A stretch of DNA of 20,693 nt from Pseudaestuariivita sp. (lineage in GTDB: Bacteria > Pseudomonadota > Alphaproteobacteria > Rhodobacterales > Rhodobacteraceae), in contig JAHDCH010000012.1 of NCBI GenBank assembly GCA_020629995.1, forward strand, positions 1 to 20,693. The letters run 5' to 3'. Every line of letters starts with the position of its first letter. The first letter of the stretch is position 1. Positions 6,334-16,932 of this stretch are shown in pieces. Both the position numbers and the translations under genes were made by a program. Under the pieces are notes generated by a model. That model had not been told where the DNA came from and ran no database searches. It was given only the letters and a program-made list of their open reading frames with translations.

Positions 6334-7200
6334 TCAGAAGTCATAGCCGCCCGAATAGGTGCCATGCGGCAGGCCCGGCACGTCCAGGTCCGCCACAAAG
6401 ACAGACCCCGACTGAGGCGCGGCCATAAGGCCCGCAGCTTCCAGCCCCTGCCGCGCGGTGGTGATGAACATCCGGCGGAGGTCCGGCCCGCCAAAGGCCA
6501 CGCAGGTCACATGCGGCACCGGAACCTCGACCCGCGCCACAACCGCGCCGTCCGGTCCACGCGCCTCGACACAGGAGCCGCCCCAGATCGCGGTCCACAG
6601 GCGCCCCGCGCTGTCCACCGCCGATCCATCCGGCCCGCCGCTGGTCACGCTGGCAAACACCTCGCCCGTCCCCGTCAACCCGGTGGCGGTGTCATAGGCA
6701 TAGCACCAGATCTCGCCGGTGGGCGTGTCGGTGAAATACATCACGTCGCCCTCGGGCGAAAAGGCGCAGGAATTGGCGATCTGCGCAGGGATGGCCACCT
6801 CGGCCACGTCCGGCCCCACGCGCCAAGTCGGGCAGATCGCAGCGCCGCCCGCATCCAGCCCGCCGACCACCATCCGCCCTTGCCGGTCCAGCGTGCCGTC
6901 ATTCATGCGTGTGCCGGGGTGGCCCGGCATATAGGGGCGCAGCATCTGCCGCGCGCCCGTGGCCGGATCAAAGCGGCACAGGCCGTCCTTGAACGCGCCC
7001 AGAGCCATGCCGGCCGCATCAAATGCAAAGGCGCACAGCCCCATGTCGAGCGGCACCCGCCGCACGGCAGCGCCGTTTGCATCACAGGACCACAGCGCCG
7101 CGCCTTCGATGTCTGTCCAGTAAGCACGCTGATCCGCCTGCCGCCACTGCACGCCCTCGCCCAGTTCGCAGCGGCAATCCACCAACAGGTCTGCCTTCAT
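6334..7200 (-). CDS. SMP-30/gluconolactonase/LRE-like family protein
   Basis: A 288-residue six-bladed beta-propeller of the SMP-30/gluconolactonase family, usual in length. The metal-binding residues of the family align: E15 in LGEGVQW, N143 in IANSCAFSPEG and D191 in GGPDGSAVD. The substrate-side residues R98 and N100 in RMNDG also align. Members hydrolyse lactones (sugar lactones and others) using a divalent metal, in the cytoplasm when no signal peptide is present, as here. The ATG at 7200 overlaps the TGA of the upstream dehalogenase gene by 4 bp (ATGA), so the two are translationally coupled. This suggests that it acts on a product of the dehalogenase pathway rather than in sugar catabolism, but that is inference. 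A palindromic repeat follows 7 bp after the stop. Confidence 0.9.
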   Translation of the reverse strand: MKADLLVDCRCELGEGVQWRQADQRAYWTDIEGAALWSCDANGAAVRRVPLDMGLCAFAFDAAGMALGAFKDGLCRFDPATGARQMLRPYMPGHPGTRMNDGTLDRQGRMVVGGLDAGGAAICPTWRVGPDVAEVAIPAQIANSCAFSPEGDVMYFTDTPTGEIWCYAYDTATGLTGTGEVFASVTSGGPDGSAVDSAGRLWTAIWGGSCVEARGPDGAVVARVEVPVPHVTCVAFGGPDLRRMFITTARQGLEAAGLMAAPQSGSVFVADLDVPGLPHGTYSGGYDF

Positions 7201-10200
7201 AGCTCTACCTCGATCTCTCCGCCGGGTTTGGCCGCGCGGCTTTGGCACAAAATGATCCCGGTCTCGCGCTGCGCCTTGGACAGAACGAAATCGCGATGCT
7301 CCACCTCGCCCGACAGCAGATGCGCGCGGCAGACGCCGCAGATCCCGTCGCTGCATTTGACGTCCACGTGCACGCCGTTCTGGGCCAGCACATCGGTCGC
7401 CGTCATGTCCGCGGGCACGTCAAACCGCCGCCCATCCTTCAGCTTGAGCGTGAACGGGTGGTTCTCATACTCGGGCAGCTCGGGCACGCTGAAGTATTCC
7501 AGATGCCGCCCCTCTTCGGGCACGCCCGCCGCCTCGGCCGCGTCCATCACCGCGGCCATATAGGCATCGGGCCCGCAGGTATAGACATGCGCGCCCTCGG
7601 GCAGTGCCCGCATCAGCGCGGGCAGATCGGCACGCGTGCCTTCGTCCGAGACGTGCAGCGTCACGCGGTCCGCCCAAGGGACGGCGCCGAGCATCGCCGC
7701 GAACCCTGCCCGGGCGCGGGTCGGCACCGAATAATGCAGCGCAAAGTCCCGCCCCAGCGCATGCAGCCTGTGGGCAAAGGCCACCATCGGCGTGATCCCG
7801 ATCCCGCCGCCCATGAGCCGCGAAAAGGGTGCATCCTCGGTCAGATTGAAATGGTTGATCGGCTTTGAGATGAAGATCCGTCGCCCCTCGGCAAATATCC
7901 GGTGCATCAGGGCCGAGCCGCCCTTGCCCGCATCCTCGCGCAGCACCGCGATCTGATAGGACGACCGGTCCGCCGGATCGCCGCACATGGAATACTGGCG
8001 CAGGAATTCAGGTGCGACCACGATGTCGAGATGCCCACCCGCCGTCCATTCCGGCAAGTCGCGCCCTTCGGGGTCGCGCAGCACATAGCGCGTGATATCC
8101 TCGGTCAGCCTGTCGACCTCGGCCACCACCACCTGCAGCACCGGCGCATCACCCGGCACCGCGACCCGGTGCACGGCGCTGTCATCCCCCTGCGCCAGTT
8201 TCAGCTTGTACTCTTCGGCGGTGATCATGGCCTGATAGGCTTCGATCCCCGCCTCGCGGTCCATCGGGAAAGGATAGGGCCAGGGCGGCGGTGCCAGCGG
8301 CGCGGGATAAACGGCCAGCGTCTGATCCTCGTATTTCAGATCAAGGTCCTTTTGCAGGTCGCGCCGGTTGAGAGGGTGTTTCGTCGGGCGATAGGCTCCG
8401 TCCTCCTCAAGCTCGATATCCCACCACCATTTCTTGATGTCATTCAACCCGCCCCGCCCGGCGGCATCATCCAGACGCGCCAGCAGGGGCGCGGCCTTTG
8501 GCACGTTCATCGCCGCCCAGCGAAACGGCTTTTCTGCGAAAAGCCCTTCAAGGTTCCACGGGCAGGTCTTCATGCAGCGCCCGCACATCGCGCCGCCCGG
8601 CGTGGTGATCCGGTAGGTCGCGCATTTCTGGCTGTCGGATTTCCAGATCTCGTAGCCGTTGAACATCAGCTTCGGCCCGGCGGTGATCGCACCGCTGGGG
8701 CATTCGCGTGCGCATTTGTTGCAGGCCTCGCAAAACGCCTGCAGGCCAAAATCAATCGGCGCGTCATGCGCCATCGGCAGATCGGTCGTCACCACGCCCG
8801 ATTTCAGCCGCGGCCCCAGGAACGGATTGAGGATCACTTCGCCGATCCGGCTGACCTCGCCCAGCCCGCTCAGCAGCAAAAGCGGCGGCTGCAGCACCTC
8901 GCCGTCCATCACCGTATGCGCCTTGGCCTTGTAGCCGAGGTTCCTCAGATGCCCGGCGATCACGCCGCCCAGAAGGGAAAAGCGCAAATACGCCCGCATC
9001 GATTGCGCCACGCTGATCCAGTCGTCGCCGGATGCGCCCTCCATCGTCTCGTACCCCTGATCGACGATCATGCTGATCGCCTGATCGTGGGGCGGGTCGA
9101 TGGGATCGCCGCGCGCGTCATGGCTGTACCAGGTCCAGTCGGGGCAGCGGCTGATCCCGGCCGCATCGACGCCTAGGAAATAGGTCGCCGCCTTCACGGC
9201 CTCGGCTGCCTTTTGCGGGCTGAGCGGGACGCGGTCCGGCGCAGGCTCTCCGTCCTGCAGCAGCACAAACGCACCCAGCGCCCGCCGCTGTGCAAAGGAC
9301 GGCGCCGACTTGCGGGCATAATGCCCCCCCTTGGCCCCGTCCTGCACCGTCTTGCCCATGTCGCCAAACTGGGCGCGGGCAAACATGTCGGCCCGTTTGG
9401 GCACCCGCGCCACGCGTGGCTCGTCGATATAGGTGGTGGGATCCGCGACCCGCTTCAGGGTCTCGAACGGGTGCGGCCCCTGCGCATAGTCCCGGCTGCG
9501 ATAGGGATCGCGGTTCAGCGCCGATTTGGCATGCCCCATGCCCAGCCACCACCCGGGCCTTTGCAGCCTTTGCCCGGCCATCGGCGCCAGAGGCGCATCG
9601 TGGGCCAGCTCCATATCCGTCGTCACGCAGGCCAGCCCGAAACGCCGCCCAAGCCAGGGCGCTTGCCCGCCTGCCGTCAACCCGGACGCCTCTGCGGCGA
9701 TGTTCAGGTCTATGTCCGAGGCCGCCCCGCTGTGCGCGCGTGCGTCCCACCCCAGCAAGCGAATGTATTGCGCGATCACCACCCCCGTTTCCGCCGCGCG
9801 CAGGCAGGCCCTTTGCGCCTCGGCGCCCGCGATCCAGTCATATCCCGGCTCGCCCGGGTCAGGCGCGCGGGTATAGTCCACCAGGAATGTCAGAACCGTG
9901 CCATGCGCACCCATCGGCTCGGGCGGCGCGCTCATTGCCTCTTTCAGCTCGGCCATGATCATGTCGATCCCCGAGGCCAGCGTCTTGGTCTGCCGCGTGC
10001 GCAGCGCTTCGGCCAGCCGCGCCACGTCAGGGTTGACCCACGGCTCGGGCAGACGCGCCTGCGTCGGCAACGGCCCGATCCCCACCATCGCGGCGTCGTT
10101 GAAATACCCAAAGGCTTTCAGGTGCTGCGCTCTTTCCCGGGGGTCATCGGGGATCTCTGCCTTGGCTGCATTGACCGGGCCGGTGCGGATCGCATCCAGC

Positions 10201-10373
10201 ATCGCCTGAAATTCGCCCATTGCGCCGACGATGCTCTCTCGCCGTTTCGGTACAAAGCTCACCGGCCGCGCTGCCTCGACGCCGCCAAGCAACAGTTTTT
10301 GTGCCCGCTTCAGCCGTTCAAGCGGATAGGGGCCCATGTGCACCGGGCGCCTTGCGTCGGAAAATATCTTCAT
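7197..10373 (-). CDS. rdhA: Self-sufficient catabolic reductive dehalogenase fused to NAD(P)H oxidoreductase
   Basis: A 1058-residue fusion. Residues about 1-620 form a cobalamin-type reductive dehalogenase unit. The core (about 390-545) ends in VVTTDLPMAHDAPI. Two [4Fe-4S] motifs follow: C548-C551-C554-C558 and C584-C597-C600-C604. Residues 189-265 are a visible degenerate duplicate of the core half. Residues about 740-960 are a flavin/NAD(P)H reductase with RQYS at 792-795, GGGIGITPM at 855-863 and YTCGPDAYM at 931-939. Residues about 970-1058 are a plant-type ferredoxin with C1007, C1012, C1015 and C1043. The layout matches the aerobic BhbA/NpRdhA class, which removes halogen from halophenols or halohydroxybenzoates using NAD(P)H. 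There is no Tat signal, so it is cytoplasmic. The ATG at 10373 keeps the RPVHMGPYPLERL stretch but has only a poor ribosome site (GCGGGG directly before it). The exact substrate is unknown. Confidence 0.92.
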   Translation of the reverse strand: MKIFSDARRPVHMGPYPLERLKRAQKLLLGGVEAARPVSFVPKRRESIVGAMGEFQAMLDAIRTGPVNAAKAEIPDDPRERAQHLKAFGYFNDAAMVGIGPLPTQARLPEPWVNPDVARLAEALRTRQTKTLASGIDMIMAELKEAMSAPPEPMGAHGTVLTFLVDYTRAPDPGEPGYDWIAGAEAQRACLRAAETGVVIAQYIRLLGWDARAHSGAASDIDLNIAAEASGLTAGGQAPWLGRRFGLACVTTDMELAHDAPLAPMAGQRLQRPGWWLGMGHAKSALNRDPYRSRDYAQGPHPFETLKRVADPTTYIDEPRVARVPKRADMFARAQFGDMGKTVQDGAKGGHYARKSAPSFAQRRALGAFVLLQDGEPAPDRVPLSPQKAAEAVKAATYFLGVDAAGISRCPDWTWYSHDARGDPIDPPHDQAISMIVDQGYETMEGASGDDWISVAQSMRAYLRFSLLGGVIAGHLRNLGYKAKAHTVMDGEVLQPPLLLLSGLGEVSRIGEVILNPFLGPRLKSGVVTTDLPMAHDAPIDFGLQAFCEACNKCARECPSGAITAGPKLMFNGYEIWKSDSQKCATYRITTPGGAMCGRCMKTCPWNLEGLFAEKPFRWAAMNVPKAAPLLARLDDAAGRGGLNDIKKWWWDIELEEDGAYRPTKHPLNRRDLQKDLDLKYEDQTLAVYPAPLAPPPWPYPFPMDREAGIEAYQAMITAEEYKLKLAQGDDSAVHRVAVPGDAPVLQVVVAEVDRLTEDITRYVLRDPEGRDLPEWTAGGHLDIVVAPEFLRQYSMCGDPADRSSYQIAVLREDAGKGGSALMHRIFAEGRRIFISKPINHFNLTEDAPFSRLMGGGIGITPMVAFAHRLHALGRDFALHYSVPTRARAGFAAMLGAVPWADRVTLHVSDEGTRADLPALMRALPEGAHVYTCGPDAYMAAVMDAAEAAGVPEEGRHLEYFSVPELPEYENHPFTLKLKDGRRFDVPADMTATDVLAQNGVHVDVKCSDGICGVCRAHLLSGEVEHRDFVLSKAQRETGIILCQSRAAKPGGEIEVEL

Positions 10374-10456
10374 CCCCGCAAACCATCATGCTGCGCGCCC
10401 CGTTGCAATCACCAATCCCCCGGCCCATCGTCCCGGCAAACAAGGAGACATGACCC
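10374..10456. promoter_or_regulatory. Divergent intergenic region between rdhA and the CMD-family gene
   Basis: These 83 bases must contain the 5' signals of both divergent genes. The CMD-side ribosome site AAGGAG is at 10442-10447. I found no convincing -35/-10 pair and no clear operator palindrome on either strand, so any promoter here is probably activator-dependent or lies within one of the genes. Confidence 0.35.
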
Positions 10457-10852
10457 ATGGACCACGACCTCTTCGACACCGACCTTTTCGAAACCGGCCT
10501 CGCCCAGCGCAAAGCCACACTCGGCGCAGAATATGTCGAAAAGAACCTCGCCGCCGCGGACGACTTCACCCGCCCCTTTCAGCAGGCCATGACCGCCTGG
10601 TGCTGGGGTTTTGGCTGGGGCGACGATGCGATCGATCCCAAGACCCGCTCGATGATGAACCTCAGCATGATCGGCGCCCTGGGCCGGATGCACGAATGGG
10701 AAACCCATTGCCGCGGCGCCCTCACCAACGGCGTCACCAAGGACGAGCTGCGCGCCATCATCCATGTCATCGGCATCTACTGCGGCGTGCCCATGGCCCT
10801 CGAATGCTTCCGCGTCGCCCGCAAGGTGCTCGAAGAAGACGGCCAGCTCTGA
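10457..10852 (+). CDS. Carboxymuconolactone decarboxylase family protein
   Basis: A 131-residue protein of the CMD family with the typical core ALTNGVTKDELRAIIHVIGIYCG (about 88-110). The length fits 4-carboxymuconolactone decarboxylase (PcaC, about 130 residues), which works in the protocatechuate branch of the beta-ketoadipate pathway. Only a single Cys (C109) is found where AhpD-type peroxidases have CxxC, so a thiol-peroxidase role is unlikely. Many CMD-family proteins are not true PcaC, and no other pca genes are present, so the exact reaction is open. The ATG at 10457 is 9 bases after AAGGAG; a nearer ATG at 10450 is in another frame. It diverges from rdhA, suggesting a shared regulon and possibly a downstream step of the same pathway. 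Confidence 0.88.
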   Translation: MDHDLFDTDLFETGLAQRKATLGAEYVEKNLAAADDFTRPFQQAMTAWCWGFGWGDDAIDPKTRSMMNLSMIGALGRMHEWETHCRGALTNGVTKDELRAIIHVIGIYCGVPMALECFRVARKVLEEDGQL

Positions 10853-10962: not shown

Positions 10963-11859
10963 TCAGCGCTCCTTTTGATACAGCTTCGCCATCACCAGCG
11001 GCGTCAGGAACATGGGGATCTGGTAACAGCCAAGAAAGGCCAGCGCGGGGCCGATCACCTCGGGCGGCAGGGCGGCGAGGAACAGCGACATGTTCCGGTT
11101 GCCGCAGGCCACCCCCACATCCACCGACCCCGACAGCCTCAGGCCAAGCCATTGCAGGCCAAAGTTCGCGGCACAGGCCGCGCCCAGCCACACCAGCAGG
11201 CGCGCAGGGCTTTCGGCCCATGTCTGCGCCACCGCAGGCATCAGCGCGATCACGAACACCGCCAGCAGCACCGCGCCCAGCGCATCGACGCGTTGCGTCT
11301 GCAGCGAGCTCAGGTCCCCCGCCAGCCGCCGCGCCACGAGACCCCCGCAGATCGCGCCTCCGATCAGCAGCGCCAGCATGGCCGCTGCCAGCAGAACATC
11401 GCCAAACCGGCCGCCGCCGAACAGCAGCCACAGCACAGGCACCACCGTCACCGGCAAGGCCGCGCTTCCAAGAACCAAAAGGCGCATGGCGCGGTCGCCG
11501 GCCGTGCCCATCATCTGGCACAGGGCAGGCGCCGACATGATCGGCGGCGCGGCCAGCATCAAGGCCAGAGCCAGAACCAGCGGCTGCGCGCGCGCCCCCA
11601 AAACGGCAGCCAGACCAACAACAGCCAGTGGCAGGCCCAGTTGCAGGACCAGAACCAGCCGCATCTCACCCAGTGCCGAAGCCCGAAACCCGGCCATCAG
11701 CGCAGGCCCGATACGAAACGCGGTCAGCCCCAGGATCACTGCCACCAGCACCCGCAGCCACGGCGTCAGCACCGCCGCCCAGGCCGGAAACGCGATGCCC
11801 AGGGCCAGCCCCGCCACCAACACCCAGCGGGCATGGGCGGCGAGAAAGGCACTGAGCAT
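10963..11859 (-). CDS. Bile acid:sodium symporter (BASS/SBF) family permease
   Basis: A 298-residue integral membrane protein with nine to ten hydrophobic segments. The family-typical helix-break region GNRNMSLFLAALPPE (about 251-265) and the C-terminal CYQIPMFLTPLVMAKLYQ are visible. SBF members carry organic anions with sodium; in bacteria the substrates include pantoate, pyruvate-like acids and sulfonates. The substrate here is unknown. Its ATG (11859-11857) begins on the base directly after the dctM stop codon TAG (11862-11860), with no gap, so it is the last gene of the TRAP operon and translationally coupled. Two different secondary-transport classes in one operon is unusual; it could be an exporter or an alternative importer for a related compound. 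Confidence 0.85.
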   Translation of the reverse strand: MLSAFLAAHARWVLVAGLALGIAFPAWAAVLTPWLRVLVAVILGLTAFRIGPALMAGFRASALGEMRLVLVLQLGLPLAVVGLAAVLGARAQPLVLALALMLAAPPIMSAPALCQMMGTAGDRAMRLLVLGSAALPVTVVPVLWLLFGGGRFGDVLLAAAMLALLIGGAICGGLVARRLAGDLSSLQTQRVDALGAVLLAVFVIALMPAVAQTWAESPARLLVWLGAACAANFGLQWLGLRLSGSVDVGVACGNRNMSLFLAALPPEVIGPALAFLGCYQIPMFLTPLVMAKLYQKER

Positions 11860-13173
11860 CTAGCGGGTCTGCCGTATGTTGTCGGGCAGGTAGGTGGCGA
11901 TTTCCGGCACCCAGATCAGGATGAACACCATCAGCACCATGATCAGGAACATCGGGATCGCGGCCTTGGCGATATAGCCCATCTCGTGATCCGTCATGCC
12001 CTGAAGCACGAACAGGTTGAACCCGATGGGTGGCGTGATCTGCGCCATCTCGACAACGACGACCACAAAGATGCCGAACCAGATCAGGTCGATCCCCGCC
12101 TCGCGCACCATCGGCTCGACCACCGCCATGGTCAGCACCACCGCCGAGATCCCGTCAAGGAACATGCCGAGGATGATATAGAAGACCAGCAGCGCCATCA
12201 GCAGCTGGAACCGCGACAGCTCGAGCACCGCGATCCAGTCAGCCAGAGCGCGCGGGATGCCGGTGAAGCCCATAGCCTGTTTCAGGAACGCAGCCCCCGC
12301 CAGGATCAGCGCGATCATCGCCGAGGTGCGCATCGCCCCCATCAGCGAGGCCGAAAAGGTGTGGCGGTTGAGCGATCCCTGCCCCGCCGCCAGCGCCAGA
12401 GCGCCCAGCACCCCGATGGCCGAAGCCTCGGTCGCGGTGGCATACCCCAGATACATCGACCCGATCACCACGAGGATCAGCAGGAACACCGGGATCAGAA
12501 ACCGCGAGTTCTTCAGCTTGTCCGCAAAGCTCATCCCCGTCTCGATGTCCGGGTTCCAGGTCTTGGAGGTCTTGGACACGATGCCGACATAGGCCATGAA
12601 CATCGCCGCCAGGCAGATGCCCGGCAGGACGCCGGCAAAGAACAGCTTGGTGATGCTCTCGTTCACGGTCACGCCATAGACGATCAGAGCCAGCGAGGGC
12701 GGGATCATCAGGCCGAGCGTGGCCGCGCCGGCCAGCGTGCCGATCACCATGTTTTCGGGATAGTTGCGCTGGCGCAGCTCGGGGATCGACATCTTGCCCA
12801 CGGTGGTCAGCGTCGCGGCCGACGAGCCGGACACAGCGGCAAAGACCGTGCAGCCGACGATGTTGGTGTGCACCAGCCCCCCGGGCAGTTTGGCGAGCCA
12901 GGGCGACAGGCCACGGAACATGTCTTCGCTGAGGCGGGTGCGGAACAGGATTTCGCCCATCCAGATGAACATCGGCAGGGCGGTGAGCGTCCAGGAGGAC
13001 GAGGAAGACCAGATTTCGGACACCATGTTGGTGCCGGTCTGCAGGTTCTTGGTGGTCAGGAATTCCGAAGCGAACCACGCCGCGCTGACCAGCGACAAGC
13101 CCACCCACAGGCCAGATCCCAGCAACAGGAACAGGACGGCGACGAGGATCAGTGTGATGCCAACAATGCTCAT
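11860..13173 (-). CDS. dctM: TRAP transporter large permease subunit (DctM family)
   Basis: A 437-residue membrane protein with about 12-13 hydrophobic segments, normal for DctM. It holds the sodium/substrate translocation path of a TRAP carrier. Characteristic stretches are FAAVSGSSAATLTTVGKM, AGAATLGLMIPPSLALIVYG and EMAQITPPIGFNLFVLQG. It acts with the small subunit DctQ and the binding protein DctP. The ATG at 13173 follows a GGAG site nine bases upstream that overlaps the end of dctQ; the gap to the dctQ stop is 6 bp. The stop abuts the start of the symporter gene. Confidence 0.96.
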   Translation of the reverse strand: MSIVGITLILVAVLFLLLGSGLWVGLSLVSAAWFASEFLTTKNLQTGTNMVSEIWSSSSSWTLTALPMFIWMGEILFRTRLSEDMFRGLSPWLAKLPGGLVHTNIVGCTVFAAVSGSSAATLTTVGKMSIPELRQRNYPENMVIGTLAGAATLGLMIPPSLALIVYGVTVNESITKLFFAGVLPGICLAAMFMAYVGIVSKTSKTWNPDIETGMSFADKLKNSRFLIPVFLLILVVIGSMYLGYATATEASAIGVLGALALAAGQGSLNRHTFSASLMGAMRTSAMIALILAGAAFLKQAMGFTGIPRALADWIAVLELSRFQLLMALLVFYIILGMFLDGISAVVLTMAVVEPMVREAGIDLIWFGIFVVVVVEMAQITPPIGFNLFVLQGMTDHEMGYIAKAAIPMFLIMVLMVFILIWVPEIATYLPDNIRQTR

Positions 13174-13179
13174 GGCCGG

Positions 13180-13701
13180 TTACTCCGAATGGCTGGCGAC
13201 GGTGTCGCGCACGATGCGGTGCTCGCCGCGGATCAGCAGGTGCACCAGGTTGTCAAGAAAGCACAGCGTCAGAAGCCCACCGCCGATCACCATGACCGAT
13301 TGCGGCATCCACAGCATCGTCGCATCCTGCCCCTGGCTGATGTCTTTGAATTTCCACGAAAAGTAGACAAACTGATACGCGTGGTAGGTGAAATAGGCCG
13401 AGATGGCGGCGCCGAGGCCAAAGCACCACAGCTCCATCAGGTACTTCAGCTTGCCCGGCACCGCGTTCAGCAGGATCGACACGCGGATATGCGCGCCGCG
13501 GCCCAGCGCGTTGGCAAAGGCCAGGAAAGAGGCCGCCGCCATGGCATAAGAGGCATATTCGGGCGCACCCGGAAAAACCTCTCCGGTCCAGCGGGCCAGC
13601 ATCTGCAGCACGATCAGCGACAGGATGGCGATCAGGCACAGCGCGGCGGCGAAGCCCGAAACAAGATACAGCGCGTCGAGCGCGCGGCGGATGGCGGTCA
13701 T
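13180..13701 (-). CDS. dctQ: TRAP transporter small permease subunit (DctQ family)
   Basis: A 173-residue protein with four hydrophobic segments and the usual DctQ layout. The family motif region VFPGAPEYASYAMAAASFLAFANALGRGAHIRV (about 43-75, shown in part by the residues PEYASY and RGAHIRV) is present. It forms the membrane part of the TRAP carrier together with DctM. The ATG at 13701 is preceded by GGGGGA; an upstream in-frame start has no such site. It lies 6 bp before dctM and is separated from dctP by an 81-bp gap that contains a palindromic repeat. Confidence 0.94.
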   Translation of the reverse strand: MTAIRRALDALYLVSGFAAALCLIAILSLIVLQMLARWTGEVFPGAPEYASYAMAAASFLAFANALGRGAHIRVSILLNAVPGKLKYLMELWCFGLGAAISAYFTYHAYQFVYFSWKFKDISQGQDATMLWMPQSVMVIGGGLLTLCFLDNLVHLLIRGEHRIVRDTVASHSE

Positions 13702-13741
13702 GGGATCCCCCGGTGGAGAGCAGGCAGTAGAGAGCAAGAAA

Positions 13742-13766
13742 AGGATGGGTGACGAGCACCCATCCT
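13742..13766 (-). repeat. GTAGGATGGGTG palindromic repeat (REP-like), copy 2
   Basis: AGGATGGGTG (13742-13751) and CACCCATCCT (13757-13766) form a perfect 10-bp stem around a 5-base loop. Read on the minus strand it starts GTAGGATGGGTGCTCG, almost the same as copy 1 at 6308-6327. It sits between the dctP stop (13783) and the dctQ start (13701), the position where a 3' hairpin can protect the abundant binding-protein message. Confidence 0.7.
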
Positions 13767-13782
13767 ACACGTTGAAGCCGCG

Positions 13783-14760
13783 TTACTCGGCCTTGAAGGC
13801 GTCGACGATGGCCTGACCGGCTGCGCCCGCATTCTCGAGCCATTCGGCGGTCATCGTCTCGCCGATGACCTTGAGCTCGTTCACCAGCGTCTCGGACGCC
13901 GGGCCGACGGTCATGCCGCCTTCGGCGAGGCCTGTCATGGTAAAGTCGGTGTACTGCACCGACCGCCAGTAGCCGGCGTATTCGGCCAGTTCGGCGCAGC
14001 CCTGCATGACGGCCTTTTGCCCGTCATCAAGGCCGTTCCAGGCGTCCGAGTTCACCATGATGTAGTTGCGCGGCAGCCACGCATCGACCTCGTAGAAGTA
14101 GTTGAGCGATTCCCAGACCTTGCGGTCATAGCCGGTGGCGCCCGACGAAACCATGGAATCGGCCACACCGGTGGCGAAGGCCTGGCTGATCTCGGCCGCC
14201 TCAATGGTGACCGGCAGCATGCCTGTCAGCTCGGCCAGACGCGAGGTGGCGTTGTTGTAGCTGCGGAACTTGACGCCGGCCATGTCGGCGACCGAGTTCA
14301 CTTCATCGCGGAAGTAGAGGCCTTGCGGCGGCCACGGCACAGAATAGAGAAGCGTCAGGTTCTGCTCGGCCAGAAGCTCGGTCAGCGGACCTTTGGCGGC
14401 GTCCCACAGCTTGGTGCTGTCTTCGAACGAGGTGGCGAGGAACGGCACCGAGTCAAAGCCGAACAGAGCGTTTTCGTTCTGGTGGCCGGAGAGCAGACGC
14501 TCACCGATGTTGACCTGACCGGTCTGGATCGCGCGTTTGATCTGCGCGCCGGGGAAGAGCGAGCCCGAGGGGTGCGTCACGATGTTGATCGCGCCGCCGG
14601 TGCCGGTGGTCACGCATTTGCCGAACTCGGCCGCGGTGACCGAGTGGAAGTTCGATCCCGAATAGGCCAGCGGCATGTCCCAGGTCTGGGCATGCCCATC
14701 GGCAAGCGCCGCGGTCGTGGTCAGCGCCGTGGCGCCAAAGAGTGCGATAAGTGTCTTCAT
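13783..14760 (-). CDS. dctP: TRAP transporter periplasmic solute-binding protein (DctP family)
   Basis: A 325-residue exported binding protein. The signal peptide MKTLIALFGATALTTTAALA is followed by DGHAQTWDMPLAYSGSNFHS. The TRAP-family pattern continues with the PSGSLFPGAQIKRAIQTGQV region (about 64-83) and ADMAGVKFRSYNNATSRL (about 158-175), where a conserved Arg (R166) usually contacts the carboxylate of the ligand. This suggests an organic acid substrate; the exact ligand is unknown. GGGAGA precedes the ATG at 14760. It lies 51 bp after a DadA-like gene and 81 bp before dctQ, so the likely operon is oxidoreductase-dctP-dctQ-dctM-symporter. Confidence 0.94.
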   Translation of the reverse strand: MKTLIALFGATALTTTAALADGHAQTWDMPLAYSGSNFHSVTAAEFGKCVTTGTGGAINIVTHPSGSLFPGAQIKRAIQTGQVNIGERLLSGHQNENALFGFDSVPFLATSFEDSTKLWDAAKGPLTELLAEQNLTLLYSVPWPPQGLYFRDEVNSVADMAGVKFRSYNNATSRLAELTGMLPVTIEAAEISQAFATGVADSMVSSGATGYDRKVWESLNYFYEVDAWLPRNYIMVNSDAWNGLDDGQKAVMQGCAELAEYAGYWRSVQYTDFTMTGLAEGGMTVGPASETLVNELKVIGETMTAEWLENAGAAGQAIVDAFKAE

Positions 14761-14811
14761 TTGGAAGGTCTCCCTGGTTGAAAAGTCATGTCTGCCCCGG
14801 TTTCCCCAAGG

Positions 14812-16068
14812 TCAATTCGCGTAGCGTGCCGGAGCATGTGCGCTCAGGTCAACGTTTGGTGTTCTGCCCGAAATCATCTGGGCCAGCAGGCGGCCCGTGC
14901 GCGGCCCGCCCGTGAGGCCGATATGGTGGTGCCCAAACCCCGCATAGGCCCCCGCCAGCCCGGGCGCCGGCCCGATCACCGGGATCGAATCCGCAGGCGC
15001 GGGGCGGTGGCCCATCCATTCGGTCTGGTCTTTCCAGGTCAGCCCGGGAAAGGCGGTGGCGATATTGCGGCGCAACAGCTCCAAAGGCGCTTGGGACGCG
15101 GGCGCGCGGGTCCCGCCAAGCTCGACCACGCCGGCCAGCCGCAGACGTCCGTCCATGGGCGTGGCAACAAACTTGCCACTGGCGACCATCACGGGGACCG
15201 ATGGCATGGACGACGGCTCCCACAGTTCGATGTGGTAGCCACGTTCGCTTTCCATCGGGACGGTGAACCCAAGCTGCCTGGCCAAAGGGCCGGACCAGAT
15301 GCCCGTCGCCAGTATGACGGCATCGCAGGCAAGTGTTTCGCCACCCGCGCGGACGCCGGCGACCGCGCCATGTGCGCTGTCGATGCCCGTGACCTCGGCC
15401 TTGACGATCTGCGCGCCCTGCGCCTCGGCCTCGGCGGCCAGCGTTTTGACATAGGCGCCCGGGTCGCTGATGCGGCCGTGATCGCCCATCAGCACACCGC
15501 AGGCATGGCCGCGCGCCAGAAGAGGATCGCGCGCGGCCACGCCTGCCGCATCCAGCACCTCCCAGCGGATCCCGTGAGAGGCGCGGATGTCCCATGCAAA
15601 GGCATCCGCATCAAAGGCGGCGCGGTCGCGGTAGACATACATATAGTCGGAGGGCACGACGTAGCGCGCCGCTTTGGTCCCGCCCGACAGGGCCTGATGT
15701 TCCTCGAGGCTGCCGGTCACGATGGCGGCGATGGCATCAGCGATGCGGCGGGTGTCAGCCGCGTTGGCATGTGACAGATACCGCACCAGCCACGGCATGA
15801 GGCGCGGCAGGTAGCCCCAGCGCAGGAACAGCGGCTGATCGCGGTCCAGCAGCATCCCGGGCGCGCGGCGCATCAGCCCCGGCCCGGTCACCGGAACCAT
15901 TGCACAGGACGCCAGCACCCCGCCGTTGCCAAAGGACGTGCCTTCGGCGGGACCGGCCCGGTCAATCAGCGTGACCCGGTGCCCATCGCGCTGAAGCCAG
16001 AGCGCGGCAGACACACCAACGATCCCGGCGCCGATCACGACGACATGCTGTGCGGATACAGGCTTCAC
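14812..16068 (-). CDS. FAD-dependent oxidoreductase, D-amino-acid dehydrogenase (DadA)-like
   Basis: A 418-residue DAO-family flavoenzyme. The N-terminal Rossmann motif VVVIGAGIVGVSAA (GxGxxG at 13-18) binds FAD, followed by LIDRAGPAEGTSFGNGG, typical of DadA-like proteins. The C-terminal FAD contact region GFGHHHIGLTGGPRTGRLLA is also typical. Such enzymes oxidise D-amino acids or related secondary amines to keto or imino acids and pass electrons to the membrane quinone pool. The start is GTG at 16068, with AAGGAG seven bases upstream; longer frames lack a site. It heads the TRAP operon and diverges from an Asp/Glu-racemase-family gene, suggesting a shared amino-acid or hydroxy-amino-acid pathway. 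Confidence 0.87.
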   Translation of the reverse strand: MKPVSAQHVVVIGAGIVGVSAALWLQRDGHRVTLIDRAGPAEGTSFGNGGVLASCAMVPVTGPGLMRRAPGMLLDRDQPLFLRWGYLPRLMPWLVRYLSHANAADTRRIADAIAAIVTGSLEEHQALSGGTKAARYVVPSDYMYVYRDRAAFDADAFAWDIRASHGIRWEVLDAAGVAARDPLLARGHACGVLMGDHGRISDPGAYVKTLAAEAEAQGAQIVKAEVTGIDSAHGAVAGVRAGGETLACDAVILATGIWSGPLARQLGFTVPMESERGYHIELWEPSSMPSVPVMVASGKFVATPMDGRLRLAGVVELGGTRAPASQAPLELLRRNIATAFPGLTWKDQTEWMGHRPAPADSIPVIGPAPGLAGAYAGFGHHHIGLTGGPRTGRLLAQMISGRTPNVDLSAHAPARYAN

Positions 16069-16100
16069 CAGCCGGCTCCTTTTCCATTCTCCCACTGGCA

Positions 16101-16129
16101 CTCTGCGCAAGTCGAATGCGATACGTCAA
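16101..16129 (-). promoter_or_regulatory. Possible promoter of the DadA-TRAP operon
   Basis: On the minus strand, TTGACG (16129-16124) is a good -35 box, but the matching -10 position reads GCAGAG (16106-16101), which is poor. The surrounding AT-rich patch (16130-16155) is unusual for this GC-rich window. It lies in the 162-bp divergent gap and marks the likely control region of both genes. Confidence 0.3.
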
Positions 16130-16230
16130 CATTTTATTTGCATTTTGTCATCGTTATGCGCCGGATGCTTGCCAGGGCGGCATTTGCGGTGGCATCTGGG
16201 GCAAGCGCGGCGGCAAATAAGGGGGCAAGG

Positions 16231-16932
16231 ATGCAGGTGGATCAGGCGGCGGTGGGCATCGTGATGCTCGAATCGCGCTTTCCGCGCATCCCCGGCGATG
16301 TGGGCAACCCGGTCAGCTGGGACTTTCCGGTGCTGTACAAGGTGGTGCCGGGCGCCCTGCCCGGCCCGACGGTGCGCAGCGGCGCGCCGGATCGGTTGCC
16401 GGATTTCATCGCGGCGGCCGAAGCGTTGATCGCCGAAGGCGCGCAGGGCATCGCCACCAGCTGCGGGTTTCTGGTGCTGCACCAGGCGGCGCTGCGCGAG
16501 GCGCTGGGTGTGCCTGTCCTGTCGTCCGCTCTGATGCAGGTGCCCATGGTCGCGGCGATGCTGGCGCCCGGCGCGCGTGTCGGGGTGCTGACCGTGTCCG
16601 GCACGTCACTGGGCCCCCGGCACCTGCGGGCCGCAGGCGCGCCAATCGACACACCGGTGGGCACCACCGAAGACGGGCAGGAATTCACCCGCGCGATCCT
16701 GGGCAATGCGCCGGATCTGGATGTCGCGCAGGCCGAGGCCGACAATGTCGCCGCCGCGCGCGCCCTTGTGACCCGGCATCCGGAGATCGGCGCGCTGGTG
16801 CTGGAATGCACCAACATGGTGCCCTACGCCGCCGCCATCCGCGCCGCCACCGGGCGGCCCGTCTTTTCTATCGAAACCGCAATCCGATGGTTCCAAAGCG
16901 GCCTTGTTCCCCGCAGTTTCCCGCGGCCCTGA
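16231..16932 (+). CDS. Aspartate/glutamate racemase family protein
   Basis: A 233-residue protein of the Asp/Glu racemase superfamily. Both catalytic Cys positions are present: C78 in ATSCGF and C193 in LECTNMVPY. Family members racemise aspartate, glutamate or hydantoins, or isomerise maleate; the substrate is not evident. The N-terminus VGIVMLESRFPRIPGDVGN (from about 8) is typical, and GGGGG precedes the ATG at 16231. An in-frame ATG at 16156 would add 25 residues that look like a short signal peptide, but it has no ribosome site and starts inside the divergent promoter region. It faces a DadA-like dehydrogenase, so racemisation followed by oxidation of a D-amino acid is a plausible pair. 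Confidence 0.83.
   Translation: MQVDQAAVGIVMLESRFPRIPGDVGNPVSWDFPVLYKVVPGALPGPTVRSGAPDRLPDFIAAAEALIAEGAQGIATSCGFLVLHQAALREALGVPVLSSALMQVPMVAAMLAPGARVGVLTVSGTSLGPRHLRAAGAPIDTPVGTTEDGQEFTRAILGNAPDLDVAQAEADNVAAARALVTRHPEIGALVLECTNMVPYAAAIRAATGRPVFSIETAIRWFQSGLVPRSFPRP

Follow-up and report, generated by a model that had tools for sequence, protein, structure and literature searches.

A putative self-sufficient reductive dehalogenase fused to its own NAD(P)H reductase, next to a lactonase-like gene, in Pseudaestuariivita sp.

Among the described catabolic reductive dehalogenases, the purified JtRdhA of J. thermophila carries out NADPH-driven debromination and deiodination of ortho-halophenols, also under air, and the chlorinated compounds tested merely inhibited it, according to the available text of PMC10463259. 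Ros_A3X954 of Roseobacter sp. MED193 is a marine catabolic debrominase without a Tat (twin-arginine translocation) signal, assayed on 2,6-dibromophenol, and putative homologues of bhbA are widespread in the Roseobacter clade (both from the available part of PMC13101508). In this study we analysed a stretch of 20,693 nucleotides of Pseudaestuariivita sp. (contig JAHDCH010000012.1; the whole stretch is called the window), which carries a gene, rdhA, encoding a protein of 1058 residues. Judged from its sequence, this protein is, with a probability of about 0.9, a cytoplasmic reductive dehalogenase of the BhbA/JtRdhA kind, built as a single chain, that would debrominate or deiodinate phenols with NAD(P)H and would probably be oxygen-tolerant. 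The gene and its parts are the following.

7197..10373, minus strand: rdhA-PDOR fusion gene, predicted self-sufficient catabolic reductive dehalogenase (open reading frame, Pfam, NCBIfam, structure matches, homologues)
9585..10154, minus strand: N-terminal repeat of the cobalamin domain, residues 74-263, including an insert at about 105-155 without NpRdhA counterpart (hhalign; gap in the 4ras alignment)
8463..9230, minus strand: catalytic cobalamin domain and two [4Fe-4S] clusters, residues 382-637 (TIGR02486, residue mapping, alignment)
8562..8732, minus strand: the two [4Fe-4S] cysteine motifs, C548-C604 (Pfam, motif reading, 112/112 fused rows)
7230..8153, minus strand: flavin/NAD(P)H/[2Fe-2S] module, residues 741-1048, with cysteines 1007/1012/1015/1043 (2pia match, Fer2)

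The open reading frame (ORF) occupies 7197-10373 of the minus strand, and the plus strand is interrupted there by stops; an earlier sequence-only reading had given its place and length correctly without mentioning the strand. All twelve cysteines (C548/551/554/558, C584/597/600/604 and C1007/1012/1015/1043) lie where that reading had placed them, the dehalogenase stretch VTTDLPMAHDAPI is present, beginning at residue 528, and its naming of the protein as a fused, self-sufficient reductive dehalogenase and NAD(P)H reductase of aerobic catabolic type from a marine alphaproteobacterium is well supported by the sequence. The profile search that it had proposed returned the NCBIfam reductive dehalogenase model TIGR02486 at 184.3 bits (cut-off 160.35; best stretch residues 430-637); as yardsticks, the J. 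thermophila protein and BhbA reached 195.0 and 203.3 bits. In the Pfam scan of the rdhA product, two overlapping double-4Fe-4S models passed their cut-offs, as did Fer2 at residues 981-1047 (38.4 bits), and no flavin or NAD domain reached its cut-off. The NpRdhA structure 4ras matched residues 1-104 and 156-726 (E 1.2e-155), and the cobalamin domain was found to be duplicated, residues 74-263 aligning with 382-541 (hhalign probability 99.1, E 6.6e-19). Residues 741-1048 were matched by phthalate dioxygenase reductase 2pia (E 9.3e-51) and also by the reductase parts of the fused P450s 6kbh and 6laa, and it is because of these matches that the module was assigned to flavin and NAD(P)H.

The catalytic residues were mapped by hand through the structure alignment to NpRdhA. 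Y426, K488 and R552 of NpRdhA correspond to Y462, K524 and R588 of the window protein, and S422, M423 and F291 correspond to S458, M459 and F331, of which F331 precedes the catalytic stretch 382-637. In NpRdhA, Y426 and K488 form the proton-donating dyad and S422, K488 and R552 the hydroxyl-binding set, as stated in the available part of PMC7565698. Our alignment had 115 rows (108 of them distinct), 3 unfused and 112 fused, the window protein included; F331, S458, M459, Y462, K524, R588 and all twelve cysteines were invariant in 112/112 fused rows. The window protein departs from columns conserved at 97% or more at seven positions, none of which is among the twelve pocket positions that we compared with the J. 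thermophila protein. These twelve showed a single difference, A353, which is valine in J. thermophila; the fused rows carry alanine 53 times and valine 59 times at this position.

The respiratory class of reductive dehalogenases was rejected by profile and architecture. On reading the N-terminus, no Tat signal was seen, since the RR pair is not followed by a hydrophobic stretch, and no Tat model is among the 25 families listed. Among the adjoining genes there is no RdhB membrane-anchor gene, the immediate neighbours of rdhA being an SMP-30/gluconolactonase-like (SGL) gene and a carboxymuconolactone-decarboxylase (CMD) gene; a reductase is fused to the protein instead.

The homology search gave 3095 proteins at E <= 0.001 among 7994 candidates scored, which do not necessarily hold both halves of the fusion. 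The best 120 of the 3095, with the window's own protein included, are 1046-1089 residues long and 70-100% identical; the J. thermophila protein (P0047) is 72-73% and BhbA (WP_015585978.1, plasmid pBHB) 49% identical to the window protein. In a quick SH-aLRT tree, whose long outgroup branches were flagged by the program, the window protein pairs with genome G072 of the same genus (support 100; its sequence is identical to P0003 of Pseudaestuariivita atlantica), with G181 near (90). Their clade of fused marine alphaproteobacterial relatives also holds J. thermophila, and BhbA and the Nitratireductor sp. OM-1 protein branch outside it. Nitratireductor had been cited by the sequence-only reading as an example of the fused form; this stands for the OM-1 protein, which aligns along the whole query, but not for the characterised NpRdhA, which is naturally unfused according to the available text of PMC10463259. 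Comparison with the same-genus copy gave a nonsynonymous divergence (dN) of 0.109 and a synonymous divergence (dS) of 0.790, and rdhA is thus under purifying selection.

The family survey covered 295 genomes (our own included) drawn from 294 genera. A dehalogenase match at E <= 1e-100 was found in 115/295 and, counted from the listed places, a match over at least 650 residues in 112/295. In two genomes (G269, locus L144; G099, locus L145) the dehalogenase is split into two ORFs by a frame change at about residues 318-389, near the junction of N-terminal repeat and catalytic domain, which could be assembly error or decay. Besides an uninterrupted copy on another contig, genome G193 has a second match at G193:C12:38801-40090, which spans about 430 residues and contains two stop codons. 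Relatives that match only the dehalogenase part occur in other alphaproteobacterial families (loci L106, L107 and L108 in G295 and G301, two of them in G295).

Electron path, substrate class, halogen preference and oxygen tolerance of the window protein are proposed here by analogy with the described enzymes. NAD(P)H would reduce the flavin of the C-terminal module by hydride transfer, and single electrons would then run through the plant-type [2Fe-2S] cluster and both [4Fe-4S] clusters until they reach base-off cobalamin. The hydroxyl of an ortho-halogenated phenol would be bound by S458, K524 and R588 with the halogen at the cobalt, a proton would come from Y462 (with K524), and the halide would depart. 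The substrates are most likely bromo- or iodo-4-hydroxybenzoate or phenylacetate-type phenols of marine origin, and dehalogenated 4-hydroxybenzoate could then be passed by PobA to protocatechuate 3,4-dioxygenase. The own assembly, which is 70% complete in 378 contigs, encodes PobA (665.1 bits, cut-off 538.7), protocatechuate 3,4-dioxygenase beta (337.6 bits, cut-off 296.4) and CobN (880 bits with neighbours in frame, cut-off 822.05). Brominated 4-hydroxybenzoate could be converted to 4-hydroxybenzoate and on to protocatechuate with B12 made by the cell itself, and pobA, the protocatechuate 3,4-dioxygenase gene and cobN may act together with rdhA. Two fused relatives outside the marine clade also lie near aromatic-degradation genes, BhbA by ligA and the Nitratireductor OM-1 relative by pobA.

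The following points weigh against this proposal. The genes for PobA, protocatechuate 3,4-dioxygenase beta and CobN are all on contigs other than that of the window. Identity to the J. thermophila protein is 65.7% in the reductase module as compared to 85.7% in residues 391-740, and with the module less similar than the catalytic part, NADPH over NADH is a tentative choice. Oxygen tolerance is not certain either, because Roseobacter A3X954 was reported to be highly oxygen-sensitive (available part of PMC13101508).

The sequence-only reading had also suggested from the gene context that the substrate may be new. The surroundings of rdhA are these.

6334..7200, minus strand: SGL gene (SGL 193.1 bits), its start overlapping the rdhA stop by ATGA
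10374..10456, no strand: intergenic stretch of 83 bases separating the divergent genes rdhA and CMD, presumed site of the rdhA promoter
10457..10852, plus strand: divergently oriented PcaC-like CMD gene, which stays short of the PcaC cut-off (116 bits against 155.7)
10963..16038, minus strand: genes for a membrane protein (so called by its letters; no Pfam family), DctM, DctQ and DctP of a tripartite ATP-independent periplasmic (TRAP) transporter, and a DadA-like protein (profiles and neighbour comparison)

Nineteen of the other window genes were searched by tblastn (E 1e-10, more than 60% of the query) in the flanks, up to 10 kb per side, of the best 80 of 309 relatives. SGL was found in 0/80 loci, CMD in two (L049 at 79%, L020 at 31%), DctP, DctQ and DadA each in L013 alone, DctM in five (76% in L013, 28-36% in the other four), the racemase gene in one (L076 at 58%) and the remaining genes in none; the L013 membrane protein was recognised by blastp (43.7%). 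Of a further 30 loci, mostly with flanks of 1.5 kb, only L083, which is of the window's genus, showed SGL, CMD and the membrane protein. A conserved dehalogenase gene cluster was thus rejected. As a whole the surroundings are shared only with one same-genus genome, and since the neighbours are otherwise nearly absent from the 80 loci, they point to no particular substrate. Other lineages have different regulators beside rdhA, with one representative of each profiled: LysR in a cluster of 29 loci, LuxR in nine and WYL in five. In 29 of the 80 loci, L003 and 28 more, mainly of Ruegeria, the dehalogenase is followed downstream by a gene like the flavin subunit of molybdenum hydroxylases; in most cases a gene for a large molybdopterin subunit accompanies it, and often a divergent LysR gene lies upstream (one representative of each gene profiled).

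The alternative that survives best, although it is unlikely, is that the window's genus turned the same kind of enzyme to another halogenated substrate, whose product would be processed by SGL and perhaps also by CMD. The SGL gene lies downstream of rdhA with its start within the rdhA stop, and SGL adjoins rdhA in both searched genomes of the genus, the window genome and G072. A near SGL relative (E <= 1e-60) occurs in only 5/295 genomes, all five with a dehalogenase match, but in the three others it is not beside rdhA. CMD, upstream of rdhA and divergent, lies within 10 kb of it in the window, G072 and G245 (two place lists read side by side; locus L049 has the same places as G245, with CMD about 1.8 kb from rdhA), but it is present in 124/295 genomes and near rdhA in these three only. 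Eleven of the 12 compared pocket positions, moreover, are the same as in the J. thermophila protein. A small operon built in this genus from a standard marine debrominase and a lactonase, which would process a brominated compound outside the known range of JtRdhA, for example a lactone or a lactone-yielding compound, is to be considered quite unlikely. A new substrate for the window protein finds little support, with the catalytic residues invariant and the surroundings shared with one same-genus genome alone, and the novelty implied by the sequence-only reading was not borne out, as the kind of enzyme was characterised in 2023 (available text of PMC10463259).

It is very unlikely that rdhA belongs to an amino-acid pathway, with DadA, TRAP transporter, racemase and 5-oxoprolinase, acting on halogenated tyrosine-like compounds. 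G072 keeps the order of membrane protein, TRAP and DadA genes, and so do L013 and G200, which may be one lineage and have 5-oxoprolinase genes in between. The start-to-start distance from DctP to rdhA is about 7 kb in the window and in G072, and likewise in G200 and L013, where PxpBCA stands between them; in the window itself, cassette and rdhA are not separated by Pxp genes. We compared the 112 genomes with a dehalogenase match of at least 650 residues, leaving out G033, G160 and G096 (partial or unfused) and keeping the split G099 and G269, with 65 genomes having DctP above 60% identity, leaving out weaker matches, the partial match of G160 and G088 at 60%. Both genes occur in 44 genomes (Fisher p 4e-8, kinship ignored), but kinship, genome size and a marine habitat confound this co-occurrence, and 21/65 DctP genomes lack such an rdhA match. 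The two genes are within 10 kb in only three of the 44 (two of one genus) and within 50 kb in two more, a closeness with p of about 0.02 if a 4 Mb genome is assumed and kinship is ignored. CMD and DctP were both rejected as dehalogenase partners, since each is frequent in the family and mostly located at a distance from rdhA, which also argues against a new substrate deduced from context. In L095 and L111, rdhA has TRAP genes of a different type (34% in DctM) close by, which speaks for the amino-acid pathway, and a gene for a tricarboxylate-type binding protein lies by BhbA. The DadA-DctPQM cassette itself recurs across the family (window 10963-16932, L013, L141, L142, L143) and carries a membrane protein of about 300 residues, of which two scanned copies gave no Pfam match; 5-oxoprolinase genes accompany it in L013 and L141, and an Asp/Glu racemase gene is nearby in the window, L142 and L143.

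The identity as the epoxyqueuosine reductase QueG or another B12 iron-sulfur protein, which the sequence-only reading had named as the finding that would speak against it, was rejected as extremely improbable, since despite the common class III cobalamin family the QueG profile TIGR00276 matched only residues 488-569 with 20.9 bits (cut-off 200), whereas the dehalogenase cut-off was passed, the proton-donor and hydroxyl-binding residues of dehalogenases are present and a reductase is fused.

The debrominase of the BhbA/JtRdhA kind, our preferred reading, adds one genus to a widespread trait, as 112/295 family genomes carry this single-gene debrominase whole or for the most part. The neighbourhoods vary with the lineage, which fits a portable and self-contained step acting on natural marine bromophenols. 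Both the kind of enzyme (PMC10463259) and its wide occurrence in roseobacters (PMC13101508) are already published, as far as the available parts of these papers go; new here are the sequence itself and the genus-specific coupling with the lactonase.

As compared to the known systems, the window protein is closest to JtRdhA as described in the available text of PMC10463259, which it resembles in length, in the order of domains and in the catalytic residues. P0047 was taken as JtRdhA because species and architecture agree; the window protein differs from it by A353 in place of valine, and the lactonase coupling was seen in the window's genus alone. BhbA of Comamonas sp. 7D-2 shares the fused architecture, all cysteines and the Y/K/R residues, but it stands outside the marine clade, differs at residues 330, 347, 352, 353 and 455, and is encoded on a plasmid, adjoining ligA. 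NpRdhA of Nitratireductor pacificus (4ras, 6zxu) resembles the dehalogenase part (E about 1e-155) with Y426/K488/R552 kept, but it has neither the fused reductase nor the insert at about residues 105-155. Ros_A3X954 is likened by its published description (available part of PMC13101508) and differs by its reported oxygen sensitivity. The catalytic part of the respiratory PceA (4uqu) still matches residues 456-652 (E 4.8e-29), but unlike such respiratory enzymes the window protein has no visible Tat signal and carries its reductase in the same chain.

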